Assembly: GCA_035651655.1 (NCBI GenBank)
Contig: DASRFG010000014.1
Location: 62,001-126,000 of the forward strand
Direction: 5' to 3'
Length of the DNA: 64,000 nt
Source of the DNA: Terriglobales bacterium
GTDB lineage: Bacteria > Acidobacteriota > Terriglobia > Terriglobales > Acidobacteriaceae
This document shows, in pieces, positions 6,271 through 36,802 of the stretch. Numbering within the stretch: position 1 is the stretch's first letter; every line of letters begins with the position of its first letter. The translations under genes were made by a program, and so were the position numbers. A model generated the notes under the pieces. That model worked only from the letters and a program-made list of their open reading frames with translations. It did not search any database and was not told the origin of the DNA.

Positions 6271-7233
6271 TCAAGATAGCGCTGCTCGGCTCGAGGTTGG
6301 CCGGTTCTCTTCATTGAACGTCCAGGATGCCTCTTTCGCTTTTATCAGCCGGTACATCGCCGAGTGTAACGGTGCAGGGACTCCGGCGCGCTCGGCCTCG
6401 CGCGCAATCGCACCACTGAGAAAATCGACCTCCGTAGGCAGATGGCGGCGAATGTCGTAAAGCATCGAAGGTGGATGATTGGTCTGCGCGCCAATCTTGT
6501 TCATCTCCCAAGGATCCTCGTGCAGTTCGATTCCACGCGCCGCCGCAACTGTCTTTCCCTCTTCGATCAGCGCATGCAGCAAATGGCCGAGATCGGAAAA
6601 TTGGCGCTCGGCGGCAAAGTGCGGCGAGTGCGGCAATTCGGACAGTGCCGACACCGAGTTCACCGACGCGTTGAAGATGAGCTTCGACCATTGTGCTGGG
6701 CGCGCGTCTTCCAGCGGCTCCGCTTTCAGTCCTCCGGCAACGATCAACTCAGCCGCCTCCTTCACCACGTCAAATGGCGTGCCACTCGGCTCGAATGGCC
6801 CTAGCCAGGTGGCGGTATCAAGCTCGTATTGCACATGGTTGTCGCTGTGACGCGTGCCGCTCATAAAAGTGGTGCCGCGAATTACGTATCCGCGAGTATG
6901 CTGCGCGATTATCTCTTCGCTGCCCAGGCCATTTTGCGCCGAGATGATTGCGCCTTTGTTGAATCGCTCACCCACCGGCGCGATCGCCTCAGCCGTCTGG
7001 GTCGCCTTTGTGGCGACGATTCCCAGGTCGCACTCGGGCAATTGCCTGGAATCGGTAGTCGCCTGCAGCTTCACTGAGAACTGGTGCGTCCCCGAAACTC
7101 GCAATCCGTGCTGGTTGAGAGCGCGTGCTTGTTCCTCACGCCTGACCAGCACGTGTACCTCGGCAACCTGCGCCAGATGCGCGGCGTACAGGCTGCCAAT
7201 CGCGCCGCAACCGACAATGCCGACGCGCTTCAT
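6271..7233 (-). CDS. Ketopantoate reductase (PanE/ApbA)-family dehydrogenase, copy 2
   Basis: A 320-residue Rossmann dehydrogenase beginning VGIVGCGAIGSLYAAHLAQ. It shares with copy 1 (1622-2542) many identical blocks: CDLGIVATK, YVIRGTTF, the catalytic-lysine segment KLIFNAS, and the glutamate segment TEVDFLSGAI. The two are clearly paralogues, yet diverged enough that the duplication is not recent. The gene lies 71 bases downstream of the molybdenum hydroxylase large subunit and 8 bases before an M24 gene. It probably reduces or oxidises an alpha-keto/alpha-hydroxy intermediate with NADP(H). The exact substrate is unknown, and a housekeeping pantothenate role cannot be excluded for one of the copies. 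Confidence 0.85.
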   Translation of the reverse strand: MKRVGIVGCGAIGSLYAAHLAQVAEVHVLVRREEQARALNQHGLRVSGTHQFSVKLQATTDSRQLPECDLGIVATKATQTAEAIAPVGERFNKGAIISAQNGLGSEEIIAQHTRGYVIRGTTFMSGTRHSDNHVQYELDTATWLGPFEPSGTPFDVVKEAAELIVAGGLKAEPLEDARPAQWSKLIFNASVNSVSALSELPHSPHFAAERQFSDLGHLLHALIEEGKTVAAARGIELHEDPWEMNKIGAQTNHPPSMLYDIRRHLPTEVDFLSGAIAREAERAGVPAPLHSAMYRLIKAKEASWTFNEENRPTSSRAALS

Positions 7234-7304
7234 GCGATTCTCGGATACGCACCAAAATTCGTTGCCACAAAGCTACACGGATTTCACAGATCAAATAAGA
7301 TACT

Positions 7305-9782
7305 TCATGCCCGCACTCCCCGATTCTCAACCCGAACGCCCTTCCGCGTCTTTCCCGTCGGCTGTGCCTGCATCAGCTGAAATATCCGGTCACCATTGTT
7401 GAAGGAGTCGTCGATGATGATGCCGCGCTCGAAGAGCGCGTCCTGTAGTGCCGCCGAGATGGTGTGAATCGGAGCGGCGCCACCTTCCCCCATGCCCTTC
7501 GCGCCGCTGTAGCTGTGCGGCGACGGCGTTTGAATGTCGCCAAACTTCACAGTGGGCATGTTCACCGCAGTAATGGGCGTGTAATCGCTGAAGGTGCTGG
7601 TGAGCATGTTGCCGACGTCATCGTACGCGCAAGTTTCCATGAGCGCTGCGCCGATTCCGTGTGCCGTCGCGCCGTAAACTTGGCCTTCGACAATCGGCGG
7701 ATTGATCACCGTGCCGCAATCGTCCACTGCAGCGTAGTCGAGGATCCTCGGAACATAAGTGTCGGGATCGACCTCGATGACCGCTATGTGCAGTTGCGAC
7801 GCGTACGTCAGCGTGAGATTGCCGTACTTCCGAACTTTATCCGGAACTTTGAACGGCGCGCGCCAGATGTAACGGCAGTTCAAGGTTACATCGTTCAATT
7901 CCTCCGGGAGGACCGCACTGTTGACGTTGACGATGTTAGACAATCCCCAATAATTGATTGCGCGCTCGGTGCCGCGTACGCGAACTTCCGGCCCTTGCGC
8001 ACCAGTGCCAAACTCGAGCTCGTCTTCTTTGGCATTCAGTGCGAACGCGGCCAGGCGCTGCATTTCTTTCTTTAATTTCTGAGCCGCACCGTGCACAGCT
8101 GACAAGCCTGAAACTGCGAACTGACTGGCATATGTACCGGAAAATCCGGTGTGAACGTTGCGATCGGTGTCGAAACCGGTGCGGACTGTCACCGTCTCCG
8201 GCTGCACGCCGAGCACGTCCGCCACTACCTGTGCCGCCGTGGTTTCGTGGCCTTGTCCCTGAGGACAGGAGCCGACCGCGACAACGATTTCGCCATAAAT
8301 ATCAAGCTTGACGTTGGCTCCTTGCGAATTCCCTGAAAACGGCGCATGCGGATTCACGATCTGCGACTGACCAAAATTGTTGGTACCAGAATCCAGAGTG
8401 GTACCAATTCCAATCCCCATCAGGCGACCTTCCCGGCGTGCCTGCACTTGCTTTTTCTTCCAATCGTCCCAGCCGATCAACTTTTTTGCCAGCGCCAGCA
8501 TCTTGGGATAGTTGCCGGAGTCGTAGATGCAGCCGTTCGGCGTGGTGTAGGGAAATTCTTCCGGACGGATGTAGTTGCGCAGGCGCATTTCATCGGGAGG
8601 AATTCCCAGCTCATGCGCACAAATGTCCACCACACGCTCCAAGAACCAGAGGTGCTGCATGCGGGAATAGCCCCGGTTGGGCCCTACAGGACATTTGTTG
8701 GTAACCGCCTGGCTGAAATCAATACGCGCGTTCTTAAATCGGTAAACTCCCGGAAACACCTGCGACCAGATCACGCAGCCCAACGGCTCGTAGCGCGGAT
8801 AGGCGCCGCAGTCGTCAATGTGGCGCGAGCTGATAGCAGTGATAACGCCGTCTTTATCGAGCGCCACCCGGGTATCGCGGAAAGTCCTCTCGTTGCCGTG
8901 CGCGCTCGAAGTCATGTGCTCGGAGCGCGTCTCTACCCATTTGACCGGCCGGCCACCACATTTGCGTGAGGCCAGCGCGCACACTGCCATTTGAGTGTAG
9001 TTCGTGATCTTTATTCCAAAGCTGCCGCCGATGTCTTCTGTCTGCACTCGGATCTTGTCAATCGGAATGCCAAGGTGCGGCGAGAGAAACTGAATGGCAA
9101 AAGACGGAAACGAATTGTTGCACCAGAAATACAGGCGGTCATCTTTCGCGTCCCAGTGTGCGATCACCACGTTGTTCTCGAGCGGCGTGCTGGAGAATCG
9201 GTGGAAGTGAAGGCGGTCGATCTCAACCACGTGCGCCGCGTCGCGAAAGGCGTTCTCAACGTCTCCATATTCGAATACTCCGCGCCACACCAGGTTTGTG
9301 CCCGCAAGTTCGTGCAGAATGCTTTTATTGGTGAGCGCCTGCTCGGCATCAACCACGGCGGGGAGCGGCTCGTATTCCACTTGCACCAGTTCGGCAGCGT
9401 CTTCGGCGATCTGCGGTGATTCGGCAACAACGGCGGCCACCGGCTCACCCTGATAACGCGCTTTGCCACAAGCCATGGGGTAGTCGGCAATTTTCTGGCA
9501 GTGATCGGGCCCGATCTCGATGAATGGCTTGGTCAGCGGCTCGATGTCACTTCCGGTCAGGACGGTAACTACGCCGGGCACGGCTTCGGCAGCTGCGGTA
9601 TCTATGCTCACGATGCGGGCGTGGGCATACGGCGAGCGGACAAATCGCAGCCAGCACATCTCCCGCAGCTTGATATCGTCGATGAACTTGCCTTTGCCGC
9701 GCAGCAGCCTGCCTTCCTCCTTGCGGGGGAGAGGCTGACCTACCCATTTTTTCTGGTGTCCGTTTTTGCCGTCGCTACTCAT
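7305..9782 (-). CDS. Molybdenum hydroxylase large subunit (xanthine dehydrogenase/CoxL-like)
   Basis: An 825-residue molybdopterin-cytosine-dinucleotide subunit. It has an N-terminal hammerhead domain (about 20-130), then the Mo-cofactor binding domains with GGSFGIK, GSCPQGQGHETTAA and the C-terminal GAKGMGEGG, whose Glu is the family's catalytic base. The active-site loop reads VGPNRGYSR, not the AYxCSFR of true form-I CO dehydrogenase or the AYRGAGR of form II, so CO is probably not the substrate. The ATG at 9782 is preferred to one 20 codons upstream, which would run into coxG. It acts with the [2Fe-2S] and FAD subunits encoded just upstream to hydroxylate an aldehyde or N-heterocycle using water as oxygen source. 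The operon context suggests a catabolic substrate. Confidence 0.9.
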   Translation of the reverse strand: MSSDGKNGHQKKWVGQPLPRKEEGRLLRGKGKFIDDIKLREMCWLRFVRSPYAHARIVSIDTAAAEAVPGVVTVLTGSDIEPLTKPFIEIGPDHCQKIADYPMACGKARYQGEPVAAVVAESPQIAEDAAELVQVEYEPLPAVVDAEQALTNKSILHELAGTNLVWRGVFEYGDVENAFRDAAHVVEIDRLHFHRFSSTPLENNVVIAHWDAKDDRLYFWCNNSFPSFAIQFLSPHLGIPIDKIRVQTEDIGGSFGIKITNYTQMAVCALASRKCGGRPVKWVETRSEHMTSSAHGNERTFRDTRVALDKDGVITAISSRHIDDCGAYPRYEPLGCVIWSQVFPGVYRFKNARIDFSQAVTNKCPVGPNRGYSRMQHLWFLERVVDICAHELGIPPDEMRLRNYIRPEEFPYTTPNGCIYDSGNYPKMLALAKKLIGWDDWKKKQVQARREGRLMGIGIGTTLDSGTNNFGQSQIVNPHAPFSGNSQGANVKLDIYGEIVVAVGSCPQGQGHETTAAQVVADVLGVQPETVTVRTGFDTDRNVHTGFSGTYASQFAVSGLSAVHGAAQKLKKEMQRLAAFALNAKEDELEFGTGAQGPEVRVRGTERAINYWGLSNIVNVNSAVLPEELNDVTLNCRYIWRAPFKVPDKVRKYGNLTLTYASQLHIAVIEVDPDTYVPRILDYAAVDDCGTVINPPIVEGQVYGATAHGIGAALMETCAYDDVGNMLTSTFSDYTPITAVNMPTVKFGDIQTPSPHSYSGAKGMGEGGAAPIHTISAALQDALFERGIIIDDSFNNGDRIFQLMQAQPTGKTRKGVRVENRGVRA

Positions 9783-29671: not shown

Positions 29672-32212
29672 CTAGAAACGGTATCTCACAGATAGCTGCA
29701 CTGTTCTCCCCGGCAGTGCCGTAGATGGAAGTCCGAAAAAGGGAGAACTCTGTACCCCGATGAAGTTGCTGAAATTGGCATGATTAATTGCATTGAAAAA
29801 GTCCGCGTTTAATTCACAATTGTCCGCATGTCCCTCGCGGCTCAGCGCTCGAGGAACGCGAAATAATTTTGTGAAGCGCAGATCAAGCTGCACAGTTCCG
29901 GTCCCTTGCCCTTGATTACGCGTAATTCCCCACGGGCGGTCATTTGCCACCGTGTCGCCGTTCGTATCGAAGCCGGTGGTGATGTCAAATGGAGCGCCAC
30001 TAGAAAGAGCAAGCACCGTTCCTACTCTTGTAGAGCCCGGCAAATTCACCACGCCGGTCAAGCTGAAACGATGCCGGCGATCAAAATCGGCACGGCCTCG
30101 TTCCGCCCGCAAATCGTAATTGTTTGCCGGCAGGCTGAAGATCCCGCTGGTGTCGTTAGTCGTGTGGGATAGATTGTATTGTGCCATCAGGTAAGCACGT
30201 CTTCCTACCCGCCCCCGAAAACTCACGCTCAGGCCTGCGCTTCGCATCATCGCGGTTGATTCGATCTGGTCCAGGTTAAGAAAATTCGCCATCGGGCGCA
30301 CGCCGGTTTGGGGCAGCGGTGCGTTAATGTCGAGTGTTCTGAAGAGATGGACTCCGCGAAGAAAGTGGCCTTCTACGGTCAGCACCATTTGTTTTCCCAG
30401 TTGGCGCTCAATCCCGAGGCTGCTCTGTAAGACGTAAGGCGCCGTCAAATCGGGCGCCAGTCGGAAGATACTGGGCGGAGCGGTACCAGAGACCGGCAAA
30501 CCATGGAAAGAGGGATTCGGGATCACCAACTGGCTTTGTCGAAGACCTTCGAAAAGCGCTGTGCGCCAGACAGCTATTTGCGGTAGGTACTCGTAAAAAA
30601 TTCCTGCTCCGGCGCGGAAAACTGTCTTCTGATCGCCCGGAGCGTATGCGACGGAAATACGTGGCGCAAACTCACTTCGGCGATCGAGGTTCGATTGCCA
30701 GTCATAACGCAGGCCGAGAGCCACGTTGAGGTTGGGCCGCAGCTTAATCTCATCCTGCAAAAATCCGCTGACTATCTGTACGCGGAAGGAAAGCTGCGGC
30801 TCGCCCTGATTAATGATGAAAACATAAGGTAGTCCCTGAGCAAAATGGTTCAGGTCTGCAAACTGAAAGGTCCCCCCAAAATTTGACCAGTCGCTGCCAT
30901 GCACCATCCGCGTCCAGTCGGTTGCACCGAAGCGAAATGTGTGACGGCCGTGACTGTAAGCCGCAACATCCTCGACTTGCAGGATATTTTCATGGGCAAG
31001 AGTCGCCGTCTGCGCAGACCCTCCGATAAATGCGCCGTTCACAACAATTTTTGCCGCATCCGGTGGAGACCCGCTTTGATCCATTTCCTTGCGTGCCATG
31101 AATCGAACCGTGTTCAAGAAATTCGGTGACAACGCCTGCTGATACGTGGCTTGAATACGATTTGAGCGCAATCGTGTAGCGATGCCTTGCGACGGAAGAC
31201 TGAGCCCGCCGATCCCGTGATTCATTTCATGTTTGTCGTTGAAGCCATACAAGAACGACAAAGTGCGGCCTGGATTAGAGTAAAAATCAACTCGTCCCAA
31301 TAGAGTTGTCCATTTTTGGCTTGTCGGTACGTTTGCCACAATTGGACCGGCGAGCGTGCGGGCATTTACCACCGCGGTCTCCTGATCTCCGAAATGCTGG
31401 CCGGAAACGAAAAACGAAGAGTGCCTCACAGCGAAAGGCCCGCTGAAGCTGGCTTCCCACAGACGCCGGTTCAGATCAGGCTTGATTCGGGCCAATGCGT
31501 TTCGGGAGTCAAATATTGAATTTCGCCCAAACAGGGCAAGATTCCCGTGAAACAGCTTCTGTGAGCCCGTCTTGGTTGTGATCTCAACCCGGGCCGTGCC
31601 CGGACGGCGGTATTCGGCCGAATAGGGATTCCTGTCAATGATCATGCGCTTGATTGCGTATGCCGGAACGTCGTCCAGTTGATCTGCCTCCAGACCGTCT
31701 ACAACGATCGAGGGTCCAGCCGTGGCTGTTGCGGCCGGTACGATGAAGTTGTTCAGCAGCGGCAGCAGGTTCTGACTGTCGGTCGGAAGCGCGCGCAGAA
31801 AATTATCGTTTACCGTCACCGCACTTGCGTTGCCTTCGGGTGAGACACGATCAATTGCACTGCTGGATACTGTGATTTGCTCTCCCGTCGTAATTCGCGC
31901 GGTGATTTTCAGTTCGACGGAAGTGTTACGGACGATCACAGCCAGATCTGGACTCTGAAGGCCTTCGCCTGTGGCTTTGATTGAATAGGGCCCCGCTTCC
32001 ACATTTCTAAATAAAAAACGCCCTTCCTCGTCTGTAAGGGTATGAAGCGATCGTTGTGTCATCCTGCTTGTCAGGGTCACCTTCGAGGAGGGAATCACAG
32101 CCCCGCTTTGGTCCTCTACAGTTCCCGCGACCTCAGCAATATTTTGTGCTGGACACACGCAAGCCGTGGTCGAGATAAGGACCAGAGCGATGTAACGGCC
32201 AATCTGGTTCAT
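29672..32212 (-). CDS. TonB-dependent receptor-like protein with carboxypeptidase-regulatory-like domain (3)
   Basis: An 846-residue outer-membrane protein, about 200-260 residues shorter than the other two receptors here. It has a signal peptide (IALVLISTTACVCPAQ), the regulatory-like beta-sandwich (GTVEDQSGAVIPSSKVTLTS), a plug-like region (RALPTDSQNLLPLLNNFIV) and a barrel ending RYRF. The plug lacks the LPxNGR motif of the other two. AAAGGA precedes the ATG. It follows the small acidic-peptide gene on the same strand, but a terminator-like hairpin lies between, so it probably has its own promoter; no clear one is visible in 32213-32284. Ligand unknown. Confidence 0.88.
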   Translation of the reverse strand: MNQIGRYIALVLISTTACVCPAQNIAEVAGTVEDQSGAVIPSSKVTLTSRMTQRSLHTLTDEEGRFLFRNVEAGPYSIKATGEGLQSPDLAVIVRNTSVELKITARITTGEQITVSSSAIDRVSPEGNASAVTVNDNFLRALPTDSQNLLPLLNNFIVPAATATAGPSIVVDGLEADQLDDVPAYAIKRMIIDRNPYSAEYRRPGTARVEITTKTGSQKLFHGNLALFGRNSIFDSRNALARIKPDLNRRLWEASFSGPFAVRHSSFFVSGQHFGDQETAVVNARTLAGPIVANVPTSQKWTTLLGRVDFYSNPGRTLSFLYGFNDKHEMNHGIGGLSLPSQGIATRLRSNRIQATYQQALSPNFLNTVRFMARKEMDQSGSPPDAAKIVVNGAFIGGSAQTATLAHENILQVEDVAAYSHGRHTFRFGATDWTRMVHGSDWSNFGGTFQFADLNHFAQGLPYVFIINQGEPQLSFRVQIVSGFLQDEIKLRPNLNVALGLRYDWQSNLDRRSEFAPRISVAYAPGDQKTVFRAGAGIFYEYLPQIAVWRTALFEGLRQSQLVIPNPSFHGLPVSGTAPPSIFRLAPDLTAPYVLQSSLGIERQLGKQMVLTVEGHFLRGVHLFRTLDINAPLPQTGVRPMANFLNLDQIESTAMMRSAGLSVSFRGRVGRRAYLMAQYNLSHTTNDTSGIFSLPANNYDLRAERGRADFDRRHRFSLTGVVNLPGSTRVGTVLALSSGAPFDITTGFDTNGDTVANDRPWGITRNQGQGTGTVQLDLRFTKLFRVPRALSREGHADNCELNADFFNAINHANFSNFIGVQSSPFFGLPSTALPGRTVQLSVRYRF

Positions 32213-32284: not shown

Positions 32285-32341
32285 GAAAGAAAATCGAGTG
32301 CCGCCCGTTCAGCCCGACTCGGCCAAGGGGACGGCACTCGA
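32285..32341 (-). terminator. Rho-independent terminator after the small acidic-peptide gene
   Basis: Read on the minus strand, the arm TCGAGTGCCG (from 32341) pairs with CGGCACTCGA (to 32294), ten perfect base pairs around a loop of about 28 bases. The stem is followed directly by TTTTCTTTC (32293-32285). The position, 44 bases after the stop codon at 32385, fits termination of that short transcript before the TonB receptor. Confidence 0.65.
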
Positions 32342-32384
32342 CTTGTCCTAAGTTACGGGACGTGAGAGTGGATGACGCGAAGGT

Positions 32385-32603
32385 CTAACCTTCGACGTTG
32401 CCGTCGCCATCGGGCCCCTGCTCCACGGTGTCAGGATCAACACCGGGCGTGTCGGAGCTGCCACCCTCATCGTCGGCTACCTGGACAATGGATGAAGTAG
32501 TTCCAGCGTGTGAGGACAGTTGATGCAGCGGCTTCTTCCATGCTCCGGAAAAGAGCGTTACCGCGAACAACAAGCCCAAAGTAAGTAGTGGTAGTCTCAA
32601 CAT
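32385..32603 (-). CDS. Small secreted acidic peptide (72 residues), predicted BlaI-controlled
   Basis: The chain opens with a hydrophobic signal or anchor (LRLPLLTLGLLFAVTLFSG), has a short basic stretch (WKKPLHQ), and ends with an Asp/Glu/Gly-rich tail (ADDEGGSSDTPGVDPD, then GPDGDGNVEG). The ATG has a perfect AGGAGG 7 bases ahead, the strongest ribosome site I found in the window, so it is a real, well-expressed gene. Two TCTTA-N6-TAAGA palindromes lie 44 and 114 bases upstream, matching the one at the blaI promoter, and a terminator follows it. No homologue is recognised. The acidic tail could bind calcium or another cation, or act as a signal to the BlaR1-type sensor; both are speculation. 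Confidence 0.7.
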   Translation of the reverse strand: MLRLPLLTLGLLFAVTLFSGAWKKPLHQLSSHAGTTSSIVQVADDEGGSSDTPGVDPDTVEQGPDGDGNVEG

Positions 32604-32645
32604 TGTTAAACCTCCTGTGTTTGAAATAGCTGCTGTATGGTTGAA

Positions 32646-32663
32646 GTCTTAATTGATTAAGAC
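32646..32663. promoter_or_regulatory. BlaI-type operator O1 and -35 box upstream of the acidic-peptide gene
   Basis: GTCTTAATTGATTAAGAC is a perfect inverted repeat of two 8-base arms about a TG centre. Its core TCTTA-N6-TAAGA is shared with the sites at 32717 and 34819. On the minus strand a perfect -35 TTGACA (32673-32668) stands 5 bases upstream, so a bound repressor would cover the spacer and -10 region of the 32603 gene's promoter. Confidence 0.65.
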
Positions 32664-32716
32664 GAAGTGTCAAGAAGAAACCAGAGTACCCAGTAATTTT
32701 GTGGCCCTGCATTTGC

Positions 32717-32732
32717 TCTTAATTGGCTAAGA
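32717..32732. promoter_or_regulatory. BlaI-type operator O2, 70 bases upstream of O1
   Basis: TCTTAATTGGCTAAGA keeps both TCTTA and TAAGA half-sites exactly, with the same 6-base spacing as the other two copies. The O1-O2 centre distance is 70 bases, close to seven helical turns less a fraction, so dimers bound to both could lie on nearly the same face. A further CTAAG half-site follows at 32733-32737. Confidence 0.6.
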
Positions 32733-32870
32733 CTAAGAATCGACACAACTTGGTTTGTTGCACGTAAGCAGAATGCCGTAGGGAGGCTGCGCCCGAAAGG
32801 TTCGGCGAGTCCAGTTGTTCAACTTAGATTGGCGAATTTCGAGAAAAAGTCTGGGAGATAGGCGGTTGCG

Positions 32871-34352
32871 TTATTTTCCGTCTTTGGTTTCCGGTCCTTC
32901 GCCGGAGCCTGGACCGGCGCCACTCTGGGCCAACCCAATTCCGGTTATGACGGCCCGGATTGCGACGCTTTCCCAACTCGGCGCAGTTGCAGCACGGGGC
33001 AGCGAACTCGGAGACTCGTCCCATCCACCATGCCGGTTGGTGCCTTCCGAAGTTGTATCCGCCGCGGCGTGTGTAGCGCTTTCTTCGCTATCCTCAACCC
33101 GCCGCTCCCCACTCGCTGAGAGAGAATCCTCGGGAGGGGCAGGCAAATAATGTGTGGAGGGCCACTTTAAATCGCTTGTGTTAAGTGATGGTGACCCTTT
33201 TATGGCCATTCCTATTGACGGAGCTGTCGCTGACGAATGTGCGATGTGCCGGATCTTGCCGCGATGTGCAACACTCGACGCTCGCAGTCGTGTCGTGGAA
33301 TTCTTTGGCCTGCTTTCCCCTCCCATGGGCCAGCCGAGACTGATACCGATACTGGGCAGCATCCATAGACCACAGGCGAACACCGACAGCGTACACATCG
33401 CGGTTATAGCCGATCGCATCCTTGAATACCTTACCGGTTCGTGTAACAGCGCCCGCACTCGAGTTGCAATCAAGGAAGCTGAAGAAGCGAAATCAATCGC
33501 CTTGGCGTCCTGGCTACCCAGAAACCACCAGCGAGCCAACTTGGCCAGGCAATCGGCGTAATCAAGACGGCGCTCTTTCCGCGCCTCCACTACCCCCTGG
33601 TCACACAGGAGCTCTCGTTCCCAGCAAAGACGGCGGTACGCAATCCAAACCGCGGGGTTAAAGAACATGATCTGACAGCTCAGAGAAGCAAGTCTGTCCC
33701 ACAAATAGTCCCGCCTGCGAACGTGAATGAGTTCGTGCCGCAAAATGTCCGACAGCTCGTCAACTGCAATTTGGGGAAGGAGTTCTTCCGGAAGCAGCAC
33801 TCGCGGCCTCCACCAGCCCGCCGTTGCGGGAGACCGCAGGCCAGGAAGGATTCCTAAAGCGCAAGATTTGACGCCGGCCTCGGCGCTCATCCGCTGAAAC
33901 ACGGCCTCCACATCGGGCGATGCCGGGCGGGCGCGGGCAATAAGGCGCTTCAGTCGAACCGATCGCGCACCGGTTTGCAACAACAACCCTGCGACTACCA
34001 GGAAGTAAACCCGAGTCAACCAGAAAGCAATGGAGTTAAGAAGAGGCGCAGAAAAGGGCGGAATCTCCCACGACTGCTGCATGGGGGTGTCGGCTGGGAG
34101 CATGGCAGAGCTTGCGTGGAGAGGGAACACGCTGTCAGTTAGAGCCGTAATAGTGGCTAAAACACGCAGGTGGAAAAGAGGCTCGAGCCATAAGAGAACC
34201 GTCACTCCGAGGAATGCCGCCCACAGCCGGAACCGGAGATGCGCGCTTGAAGAGAACCAGCACAACGTGCGTACCAGCACATATAAGCCAAGCACCTGCA
34301 GGAGATACGTCAGGCTGGCGCTGCCTGACCACACGGTGAAGTGGGTATGCAT
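32871..34352 (-). CDS. BlaR1-like M56 membrane metalloprotease
   Basis: A 493-residue sensor-protease. Helices at about 10-30, 45-65 and 105-130 precede a cytoplasmic zinc protease domain with HELIHVRRRDYLWD (HExxH near residue 206) and a downstream WERELLCDQGV carrying the third ligand Glu. A last helix (AITAMCTLSVFACGLWMLP) follows. The C-terminal 150 residues are Ser/Thr/Ala-rich and low in complexity. There is no penicillin-binding sensor domain with SxxK/KTG motifs, so beta-lactam is not the obvious signal. In the family the protease cleaves the BlaI repressor. The gene follows blaI by 67 bases and is probably co-transcribed from the operator-controlled promoter at 34826-34854. Confidence 0.85.
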   Translation of the reverse strand: MHTHFTVWSGSASLTYLLQVLGLYVLVRTLCWFSSSAHLRFRLWAAFLGVTVLLWLEPLFHLRVLATITALTDSVFPLHASSAMLPADTPMQQSWEIPPFSAPLLNSIAFWLTRVYFLVVAGLLLQTGARSVRLKRLIARARPASPDVEAVFQRMSAEAGVKSCALGILPGLRSPATAGWWRPRVLLPEELLPQIAVDELSDILRHELIHVRRRDYLWDRLASLSCQIMFFNPAVWIAYRRLCWERELLCDQGVVEARKERRLDYADCLAKLARWWFLGSQDAKAIDFASSASLIATRVRALLHEPVRYSRMRSAITAMCTLSVFACGLWMLPSIGISLGWPMGGESRPKNSTTRLRASSVAHRGKIRHIAHSSATAPSIGMAIKGSPSLNTSDLKWPSTHYLPAPPEDSLSASGERRVEDSEESATHAAADTTSEGTNRHGGWDESPSSLPRAATAPSWESVAIRAVITGIGLAQSGAGPGSGEGPETKDGK

Positions 34353-34419
34353 AAGACCTCGCTTCCGCTTTCAGCTCTGCTCTGAGGTATCGCCCAGCCA
34401 CTCACTGGGCACTCCACCT

Positions 34420-34818
34420 CTACGTCCTACCTCTGCGTCGCCTCCGGATCAATTGTTCCAGCTCCTCCAATTCCGCGGGCCTGATGTGCTCTTCCTCCAG
34501 AAGGTTCACCACCAGTTCGGCCCCCGAGCCGCCAAAGAAACGACCCAGTAAATTCCTCACCGAGACCCGAGTGATTTGTTCCCGGCTCACTCGCGCGCGG
34601 AATAAAAATGCCCTGCCCTGGGGCCTGTGGTTCACCAGTTTCTTTTGCTCCATGATGCGCAAAAGAGTCTGGGTCGTCTTGTAATTGGGCGGGGGTTTTT
34701 CCCCAGAGGCATCAAGCACGTCCTCAATTGTGCCTTCCCCAATACGCCAAAGAATTTCTAAGAGCTTAAGCTCGCCTGCTGTAGGGAGCGCTACTCGGGC
34801 TACCGACGATCTGGCCAC
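34420..34818 (-). CDS. BlaI/MecI/CopY-family transcriptional repressor
   Basis: A 132-residue winged-helix repressor. The HTH region reads LPTAGELKLLEILWRIGEGT through NYKTTQTLLRIMEQKKLV, and the dimerisation tail FFGGSGAELVVNLLEEE resembles BlaI/MecI; the family's Asn-Phe cleavage site corresponds to Asn-Leu here. I start it at GTG 34818, where the family's length is met. A -35/-10 pair places the transcription start at or within a base or two of this GTG, so the mRNA is probably leaderless. A GTG at 34875 would add 19 residues and put the operator and promoter inside the gene. It likely represses itself and the 32603 peptide gene. Confidence 0.85.
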   Translation of the reverse strand: MARSSVARVALPTAGELKLLEILWRIGEGTIEDVLDASGEKPPPNYKTTQTLLRIMEQKKLVNHRPQGRAFLFRARVSREQITRVSVRNLLGRFFGGSGAELVVNLLEEEHIRPAELEELEQLIRRRRRGRT

Positions 34819-34834
34819 TCTTAGGATACTAAGA
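34819..34834. promoter_or_regulatory. BlaI-type operator O3, overlapping the -10 of the blaI promoter
   Basis: TCTTAGGATACTAAGA is an inverted repeat with perfect 6-base arms and a 4-base centre, sharing TCTTA-N6-TAAGA with O1 and O2. It covers the -10 hexamer and ends exactly where the GTG start codon begins, the expected placement for autorepression. Confidence 0.7.
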
Positions 34835-34854
34835 TCGATTGGCCTGCTGGTCAA
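34826..34854 (-). promoter_or_regulatory. blaI promoter (-35 TTGACC, 17-base spacer, -10 TAGTAT)
   Basis: On the minus strand TTGACC (34854-34849) and TAGTAT (34831-34826) are separated by 17 bases. The -10 is 7 bases before the GTG at 34818, which leaves no room for a ribosome site and implies a leaderless transcript. Operator O3 overlaps the -10. Confidence 0.6.
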
Positions 34855-34900: not shown

Positions 34901-36802
34901 TTACACCCCGCGAATCAGGTCCACCGGATCGGGTATGGCAGGTTCTTTGTTGTCGGCGCTGGCGTCCTCTTTCTCCGCCAGAAAATCGCCTTCGCCCGGG
35001 GCCAGAAACAGATTGGTCTCCAACCCGTGCTGCCGAGTGTATAAATCGTAGTAGCGGCCGCGGGCGGCATATAGTTCCTGGTGCGTTCCGCGTTCAACAA
35101 TTTCACCGGCCTCGACGACCAGGATCTGGTCCGCACGACGGATAGTACTCAGGCGGTGCGCGATTACAAAAGTCGTGCGCCCAGCCATCAGATAAGACAG
35201 TCCCTGCTGAATCAGTGCTTCCGATTCCGAATCCAGGCTTGACGTGGCTTCATCGAGAATCAAAATTCTCGGATCGGCAAGAATCGCACGAGCTATCGAG
35301 ATGCGTTGCCGCTGTCCGCCTGAGAGCTTCACACCTCTCTCGCCAACGATCGTGTCGTAGCCGGTGGCGAACTTCTCCGCAAACTCATCCACGCGAGCGA
35401 TGCGGCAGACGCGTCGGATTTCTTCTTCGCGGGCATTCGGACGAGAAAATGCCACGTTCTCCCGGATCGTGCCGTCGAACAGAAACGATTCCTGCAGCAC
35501 GACCCCTAGAGCCTCTCGGTAAGAATCCAGTCGTACGTGATTGAGGTCAATTCCATCAATCAGTATGCGACCCGCTACTGGCTTGTAGAACGCGGCGATG
35601 AGGCCAATGATGGTGGACTTGCCGGAACCCGATGACCCGACTAGCGCCGTCACCGTGCCAGGTTTGGCGTCAAAGCTGACGTCTTTCAACACCGGCTTGT
35701 CGGGATCGTAGGCAAAATCCACATTCTCGAAACGGATTGCTCCGTTATTTTCATGAAGCTGAATTTTGCGTTCTGGGTCTTGGTCTTCCGGAGGTTCGGA
35801 CAGGACTTCGTGAGTGCGCTCCAGGCCGGCAATTGCCTCAGTGATCTGCGTCCCGATATTTACCACCTGAAAAATCGGCGCCACCAGGTATCCCAGAAAC
35901 ATGGTGTACGTGAAAAAGCCGCCAAGGGTCAGCTTGCCGGCGATGATTTGCCGTGCGCCCATATACATGACCACGGCGCCGACGATGCCTATCAGCATTG
36001 CTGAAGATAGGCTCATCAATGAAGTGGCGGTGAGTGTCCGCAGAACGTTATTCAACAACCGGTGCACGCCCGCGCTGAACACGCCCTCCTCGCGGGCCTC
36101 AGCGTGATACCCCTTCACTACGCGCACGCCACCGAGCGATTCCGTCAGCCTTCCTGTAACCTCCGCATTGATCTTGCTGCGCTCGCGGAAAATGGGCCGA
36201 ATCGTCGTAAATGCCTTTTTCAGGCCAAAGGAAAACAGTACGAGGCAGGTAAACGCAAAAAGCGTCATGGACGCACTAAGGCGCATCAGCACGACCAGAG
36301 CGATTACAGCGGTGAGCAGTCCGCCGGCGAACTCCACCAGCCCGGTACCGATCAGGTTACGCACGCCCTCAACGTCATTCATAATTCGCGCCACCAGCGT
36401 GCCCGTCTTGTTGGAATCGTAGTAGGCCACGGGTAAATGGCCAACGTGGACCTGCACCTTCTGCCGTAACTCAGTGATTAAACGTTGCGCCTCTTTGGAG
36501 AGCAATTGGGTTAGACCGAACGACGTTGCGCCCTGAATCAGCGTAGCGGCAAGGACCGCTCCCAACAGAGGTAGAAGCAGTTGCGTATGTCGTTTAACAA
36601 TGATGTCGTCAACCAGGAATTTCGTGGAGGCGGGAAGCACCAATCCGGAAACCCGATTGATTGCCATGAGTATCAGCCCAAGCGCCAGCAAGCCGCGGCG
36701 GGGATAAATCAACGCCCACAAGTCCGGCCAGACCGTCTTCAGCTGTTGCATGGGCGCTTTTTTGGCCGAGCCTTTATCGGGGGTCGCTACGGGAGACGAC
36801 AA
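34901..36802 (-). CDS. ABC exporter, fused permease-ATPase (MsbA/multidrug type)
   Basis: A 633-residue half-transporter. Six helices span about residues 35-330 (GLLALGLILMAINRVSG and following). The nucleotide-binding domain has Walker A GSSGSGKST, signature LSGGQRQR, Walker B ILILDEATSSLD and the H-loop IAHRLST. It would work as a homodimer exporting a lipid, drug or peptide. The start is TTG at 36802, with GAGG 4 bases ahead. A 30-residue acidic tail (EKEDASADNKEP) follows the ATPase. It lies upstream of blaI on the same strand, but blaI has its own promoter inside the gap. Export of the small acidic peptide is conceivable, but that peptide has a Sec-like signal. Confidence 0.9.
   Translation of the reverse strand: MSSPVATPDKGSAKKAPMQQLKTVWPDLWALIYPRRGLLALGLILMAINRVSGLVLPASTKFLVDDIIVKRHTQLLLPLLGAVLAATLIQGATSFGLTQLLSKEAQRLITELRQKVQVHVGHLPVAYYDSNKTGTLVARIMNDVEGVRNLIGTGLVEFAGGLLTAVIALVVLMRLSASMTLFAFTCLVLFSFGLKKAFTTIRPIFRERSKINAEVTGRLTESLGGVRVVKGYHAEAREEGVFSAGVHRLLNNVLRTLTATSLMSLSSAMLIGIVGAVVMYMGARQIIAGKLTLGGFFTYTMFLGYLVAPIFQVVNIGTQITEAIAGLERTHEVLSEPPEDQDPERKIQLHENNGAIRFENVDFAYDPDKPVLKDVSFDAKPGTVTALVGSSGSGKSTIIGLIAAFYKPVAGRILIDGIDLNHVRLDSYREALGVVLQESFLFDGTIRENVAFSRPNAREEEIRRVCRIARVDEFAEKFATGYDTIVGERGVKLSGGQRQRISIARAILADPRILILDEATSSLDSESEALIQQGLSYLMAGRTTFVIAHRLSTIRRADQILVVEAGEIVERGTHQELYAARGRYYDLYTRQHGLETNLFLAPGEGDFLAEKEDASADNKEPAIPDPVDLIRGV

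Follow-up and report, generated by a model that had tools for sequence, protein, structure and literature searches.

The window, a 64-kb stretch of DNA from a soil acidobacterium, carries a blaI repressor gene followed on the same strand by genes for an M56 membrane protease, a 72-residue peptide and an Oar-like receptor (Table 1). BlaI passes the Penicillinase_R (PF03965) profile at 1.9e-25 (89.9 bits against a cut-off of 22.6), matches MecI/BlaI structures at about 1e-6, and is present as a single copy in the window's genome. The GTG at 34818 is the start codon giving the best agreement with homologue lengths, and the blaI mRNA is probably leaderless, beginning at this codon. An ABC exporter gene on the same strand (window positions 34901-36802) ends 46 bp before the blaI -35.

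Table 1. Features of the blaI-M56 locus, with window coordinates.
Feature	Position	Strand	Sequence or basis
Oar-like TonB-type receptor, CarboxypepD_reg + outer-membrane barrel	29672..32212	-	Pfam
Strong hairpin and then TTTTCTTT, intergenic between peptide gene and receptor gene	32297..32343	-	folding, z -2.81
72-aa peptide gene	32385..32603	-	sequence analysis; homologue in G009
Peptide-gene Shine-Dalgarno AGGAGG	32611..32616	-	kept in G009
Operator 3	32647..32662	.	TCTTAATTGATTAAGA; word scan; footprint kept in G009
Peptide-gene -35 TTGACA	32668..32673	-	5 bp before operator 3
Operator 2	32717..32732	.	TCTTAATTGGCTAAGA; word scan
M56 membrane protease, BlaR1-like, 493 aa	32871..34352	-	Pfam Peptidase_M56 1.5e-27
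blaI, Penicillinase_R, 132 aa	34420..34818	-	Pfam 1.9e-25; MecI/BlaI structures matched
Operator 1	34819..34834	.	TCTTAGGATACTAAGA on +, TCTTAGTATCCTAAGA on -; word scan, promoter scan
blaI promoter TTGACC-N17-TAGTAT	34826..34854	-	promoter scan; same arrangement in G013

The M56 protein matches BlaR1 and has HELIH at residue 206, the HExxH of a zinc protease, which is retained in 19 of 19 aligned M56 homologues. Four hydrophobic segments in its hydropathy profile suggest, by analogy with BlaR1, four membrane segments and a tail outside the cytoplasm. Phe288, 23 residues after Tyr265, is equivalent in position only to Phe284 of BlaR1, where the tyrosine is Tyr261. A Phe at this autocleavage position, 23 residues (24 in two) past the Tyr261 equivalent, was found by script in 15 of the 19 homologues, and a sixteenth with the same spacing (L046) was recognised by eye. 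Absence of the penicillin-binding sensor from this BlaR1 had been part of the original prediction and was confirmed, Peptidase_M56 being the only domain, and no penicillin-binding domain, detected by the Pfam scan of the protein. Its C-terminal tail of about 160 residues is without a Pfam match or recognised sensor; since the tail has no penicillin-binding domain, the protein is classed as an M56 protease working like BlaR1 and not as BlaR1. A search of the M56 protein against named genomes gave no match, and a single-sequence structure model (pLDDT 44.7) was too poor for use. In the repressor, S. aureus BlaI is cut at Asn101-Phe102, and Phe at P1' is reported to be almost invariant in classical BlaI (PMC9834060). 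At this bond the repressor of the window reads Asn-Leu; the P1 Asn is found in 18 of 20 BlaI homologues and the following Leu in all of them.

The three copies of TCTTA-N6-TAAGA from which the locus was originally read as a regulon were all re-found by word scan, and, in agreement with the original reading, the window holds no fourth copy; 0.01 copies are expected, and none of 100 shuffles contained three. The best -10 of the blaI promoter falls inside operator 1, in agreement with the predicted overlap, and this operator adjoins the likely GTG start without a gap. Operator 2 lies 70 bp upstream of operator 3. At operator 3, the sequence GTCTTAATTGATTAAGAC had been described as an 18-base perfect palindrome; its two 8-base arms are indeed perfect, but the central TG is non-complementary. 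Likewise, the TTGACA of the peptide promoter is close to operator 3 but does not strictly abut it, 5 bp lying between them. The -10 of this promoter is poor. The AGGAGG noted ahead of the 72-residue reading frame is present (32616-32611).

The peptide has a probable signal peptide (..SGA/W.., by eye), and the predicted mature form of 51 residues is acidic, with a pI of 4.05 and a charge of -8. Its C-terminus, EQGPxGDGNVEG, is conserved. A terminator had been ascribed to the gene, and a strong hairpin was found 3' of it, which may serve as a terminator or an attenuator. The loop of this hairpin exceeds the length that the automatic terminator scan allows, so that the scan did not report it; folding reveals it. 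The Oar-like receptor probably belongs to the regulon of the peptide, through read-through past the hairpin.

A homologue of the peptide (54% identical) occurs in a second genus, in genome G009, with two exact operators upstream. The G009 promoter has the same TTGACA-N5-operator layout, the remaining promoter sequence having diverged; when aligned, it retains the -35, the operator, the Shine-Dalgarno sequence and little else. TTGACA-N4-GTCTTAA-N4-TTAAGAC and ACAGGAGGTT are kept between the window and G009 amid diverged sequence. The order peptide-hairpin-receptor is the same in G009, where a similar hairpin (z -2.95) has changed stem bases. Confident homologues of the peptide were found only in these two genera, and alignment against named genomes gave one match, a Terriglobales MAG that is the G009 locus. 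Weak matches (E 0.002-0.06) were obtained in G043, G053, G081, G086, G087, G163 and G361, and inspection of L011 and L012 for a peptide gene in context revealed none. Tandem operators with a recurring spacing of 32-33 bp were seen at L046, L049, L054 and G136:C199:20021-20069.

Conservation of the sites in related genomes had been named beforehand as a check. Among 20 related blaI-M56 loci, the exact operator occurs at blaI or behind M56 in 13, a site being counted when it lay up to about 320 bp ahead of the conserved BlaI start or up to about 610 bp past M56. One further locus (G013) has a one-mismatch site at the place equivalent to that in the window. The word is absent near blaI-M56 in the other six, which implies drift of the operator at these loci or else a link that does not hold everywhere.

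G013 encodes the closest BlaI homologue (2.4e-57). Its blaI is intact and keeps the promoter-operator-GTG arrangement, the mismatched operator standing before the GTG. Its M56 gene is a fragment without HExxH (L053, reverse-strand offsets about 6832-7840), no peptide was detected in a search of the genome, and one exact operator is left. This pattern is consistent with the protease having been lost first and the regulon having decayed afterwards, or with the opposite sequence of events, and G013 may offer a natural knock-out for comparison.

Specificity of the word was examined in 34 genomes of the family: 14 with a site-bearing blaI-M56 locus, 15 comparison genomes, and five (G013, G169, G049, G197, G041) with a related blaI-M56 and no exact site at the locus, which hold 0-2 sites each. 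The main ground for picking the comparison genomes was the lack of a close blaI-M56 match; three of them have a distant one. The site-bearing genomes contain 68 sites and 39 copies of a reversed control pattern, whereas the comparison genomes contain 3 sites in 64 Mb and 37 control copies (Fisher P 4e-10). The site-bearing genomes had been picked partly for a site near blaI; when the sites at blaI-M56 loci were removed, the numbers were 44 against 3 (P 8e-11). Commonness of the motif at random genome positions had been named as a point that would speak against the prediction, and the word is not common in genomes without the system. Across the phylum, TCTTAA-N4-TTAAGA, an extended form of the word, is rare, being present in 12 of 119 genomes. 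That the sites bind another factor, their nearness to blaI being incidental, is hardly plausible when the word is nearly absent from genomes without the system and, in many genera, is found mainly at blaI and M56; what favours this explanation is that binding by BlaI is deduced, and that some sites in relatives fall within reading frames or near unrelated genes. Some sites will be chance occurrences, particularly in genomes with few of them.

In the window's own genome (4.07 Mb, 39 contigs) there are 7 exact copies of the operator, where the frequency in the comparison genomes leads to an expectation of about 0.2. As the genome has one BlaI, these sites can be assigned to it. The three sites of the original prediction are therefore real, but the extent given to the regulon was too small. 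Outside the window, one site precedes a 105-aa reading frame without a Pfam match and another a Phosphoesterase gene. The remaining two form a tandem pair 21 bp apart, close to where a methyltransferase gene ends (L142 2567-2603). The genes on either side of this pair converge, no target is obvious, and the pair may not be a promoter. Thus, the peptide is supported by sequence as a BlaI target but not as the sole one, the receptor and these four further sites being candidates also.

In relatives, where operators were taken with a nearby -35 or alone, the operator precedes CarboxypepD_reg/TonB proteins in several genera (L092, L094, L095, L096, L098, L101, L116, L117, L120 and L134, of which L096 and L117 were called by sequence likeness to their neighbours, without a domain scan). 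The near-identical TonB-receptor loci L116 and L117 of G109 each have the operator TCTTAAACATTTAAGA ahead of the receptor. In the genus g62, a conserved 35-aa membrane peptide, MxDDxDIPxSY (M[VI]DDxDIPxSY...), lies 108-339 bp behind the operator (L051, L052, L055, L058, L100, L103, L121). Other genes behind the operator encode polyprenyl synthases, type III PKS, aminotransferases, FAD oxidoreductases and PEP mutase.

These targets bear on the signal. In PetR/PetP of cyanobacteria, a BlaI-like factor and a BlaR1-like protease are controlled by copper (PMC7896320), and the M56 protein here could similarly sense metal or redox state instead of envelope damage or a ligand bound by the tail, with the sites still those of BlaI. 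It shares with PetP the lack of a PBP domain, and a very acidic peptide ahead of a TonB-type receptor would suit metal handling. However, the targets in other genera are mixed (CarboxypepD_reg envelope proteins, polyprenyl synthase, type III PKS, aminotransferase), without a copper or iron theme, and we give metal sensing only a minor chance. It concerns the signal alone and is compatible with the rest of the switch described below.

A proteolytic derepression switch of the BlaI/BlaR1 type, with a lineage-specific operator and a putative envelope signal, is the likely explanation of the locus. Its core, an autoregulated BlaI operator, a sensorless M56 protease and the peptide as a target, is well supported by the statistics of the sites, by their recurrence in other genera and by the residues of catalysis and cleavage. 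Operator and targets come from the sequence, and binding, cleavage and signal are proposed by analogy with the family. A BlaI dimer on TCTTA-N6-TAAGA would block the leaderless blaI-M56 promoter as well as the peptide promoter and, probably, expression of the Oar-like receptor by read-through past the hairpin. The membrane part of the M56 protein, together with the periplasmic tail, would perceive an envelope signal, and the cytoplasmic zinc site of the protease would cut BlaI at Asn-Leu, matching Asn101-Phe102 of the Staphylococcus protein. The cut repressor would then free the operators, and the peptide would be exported and act with the receptor.

The peptide could itself be the signal: after export, import or display by way of the Oar-like receptor it would be read by the M56 tail, in a self-reinforcing loop. 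Peptide, receptor and blaI lie under the same operator, the peptide C-terminus is conserved, and the M56 protein of the peptide-bearing G009 aligns over the tail too (residues 11-491). Yet the G109 tail also aligns (10-485) and no peptide was detected there; many relatives use the operator without this peptide, and the role of the receptor is putative. We consider such a loop improbable. Its closed form, in which the sensor would have been replaced by a disordered tail reading the cell's own secreted acidic peptide handled by the Oar-like receptor, appears quite improbable.

Penicillin resistance in Staphylococcus is turned on by a switch to which the present repressor and protease are related. 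With the BlaI/BlaR1 and MecI/MecR1 systems of Staphylococcus and Bacillus, the locus described here shares a winged-helix repressor and an M56 zinc protease in one operon, autoregulation, palindromic operators within promoters, the Asn of the repressor cleavage site and the Phe at the autocleavage position of the protease. It differs in having no penicillin-binding sensor and a Leu after the Asn. Its operator is TCTTA-N6-TAAGA in place of TACA-NN-TGTA, which is a feature of the classical systems and not of the whole PF03965 family, and its targets are the peptide and probably an outer-membrane receptor instead of beta-lactamase or PBP2a. By its description, PetR/PetP likewise applies a BlaI-like factor and a BlaR1-like protease to non-beta-lactam genes; its targets, however, are plastocyanin and cytochrome c6, its signal is copper, and PetR also activates (PMC7896320). 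The homologous CopR/CopY copper repressors recognise RNYKACANNTGTMRNY (PMC7253601), also a 16-base palindrome of similar frame, in which YKA-N6-TMR fits TTA-N6-TAA; the inner ACA/TGT of the CopY operator is missing from TCTTA-N6-TAAGA, and CopY is controlled by metal at CxC motifs and not by a protease. In the literature searched, neither this operator nor any acidobacterial BlaI regulon was described. The class of regulator is thus already known, and what is new is the operator, the targets and the sensorless tail.

BlaI-M56 pairs reach well beyond beta-lactam systems, and little is known of their targets and signals there. The operator word tracks this BlaI across at least 7 genera and lets its regulons be read from sequence. 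It points to genes of the cell envelope and of outer-membrane receptors as frequent targets, and it allows a direct test of what a BlaR1 without a sensor responds to.
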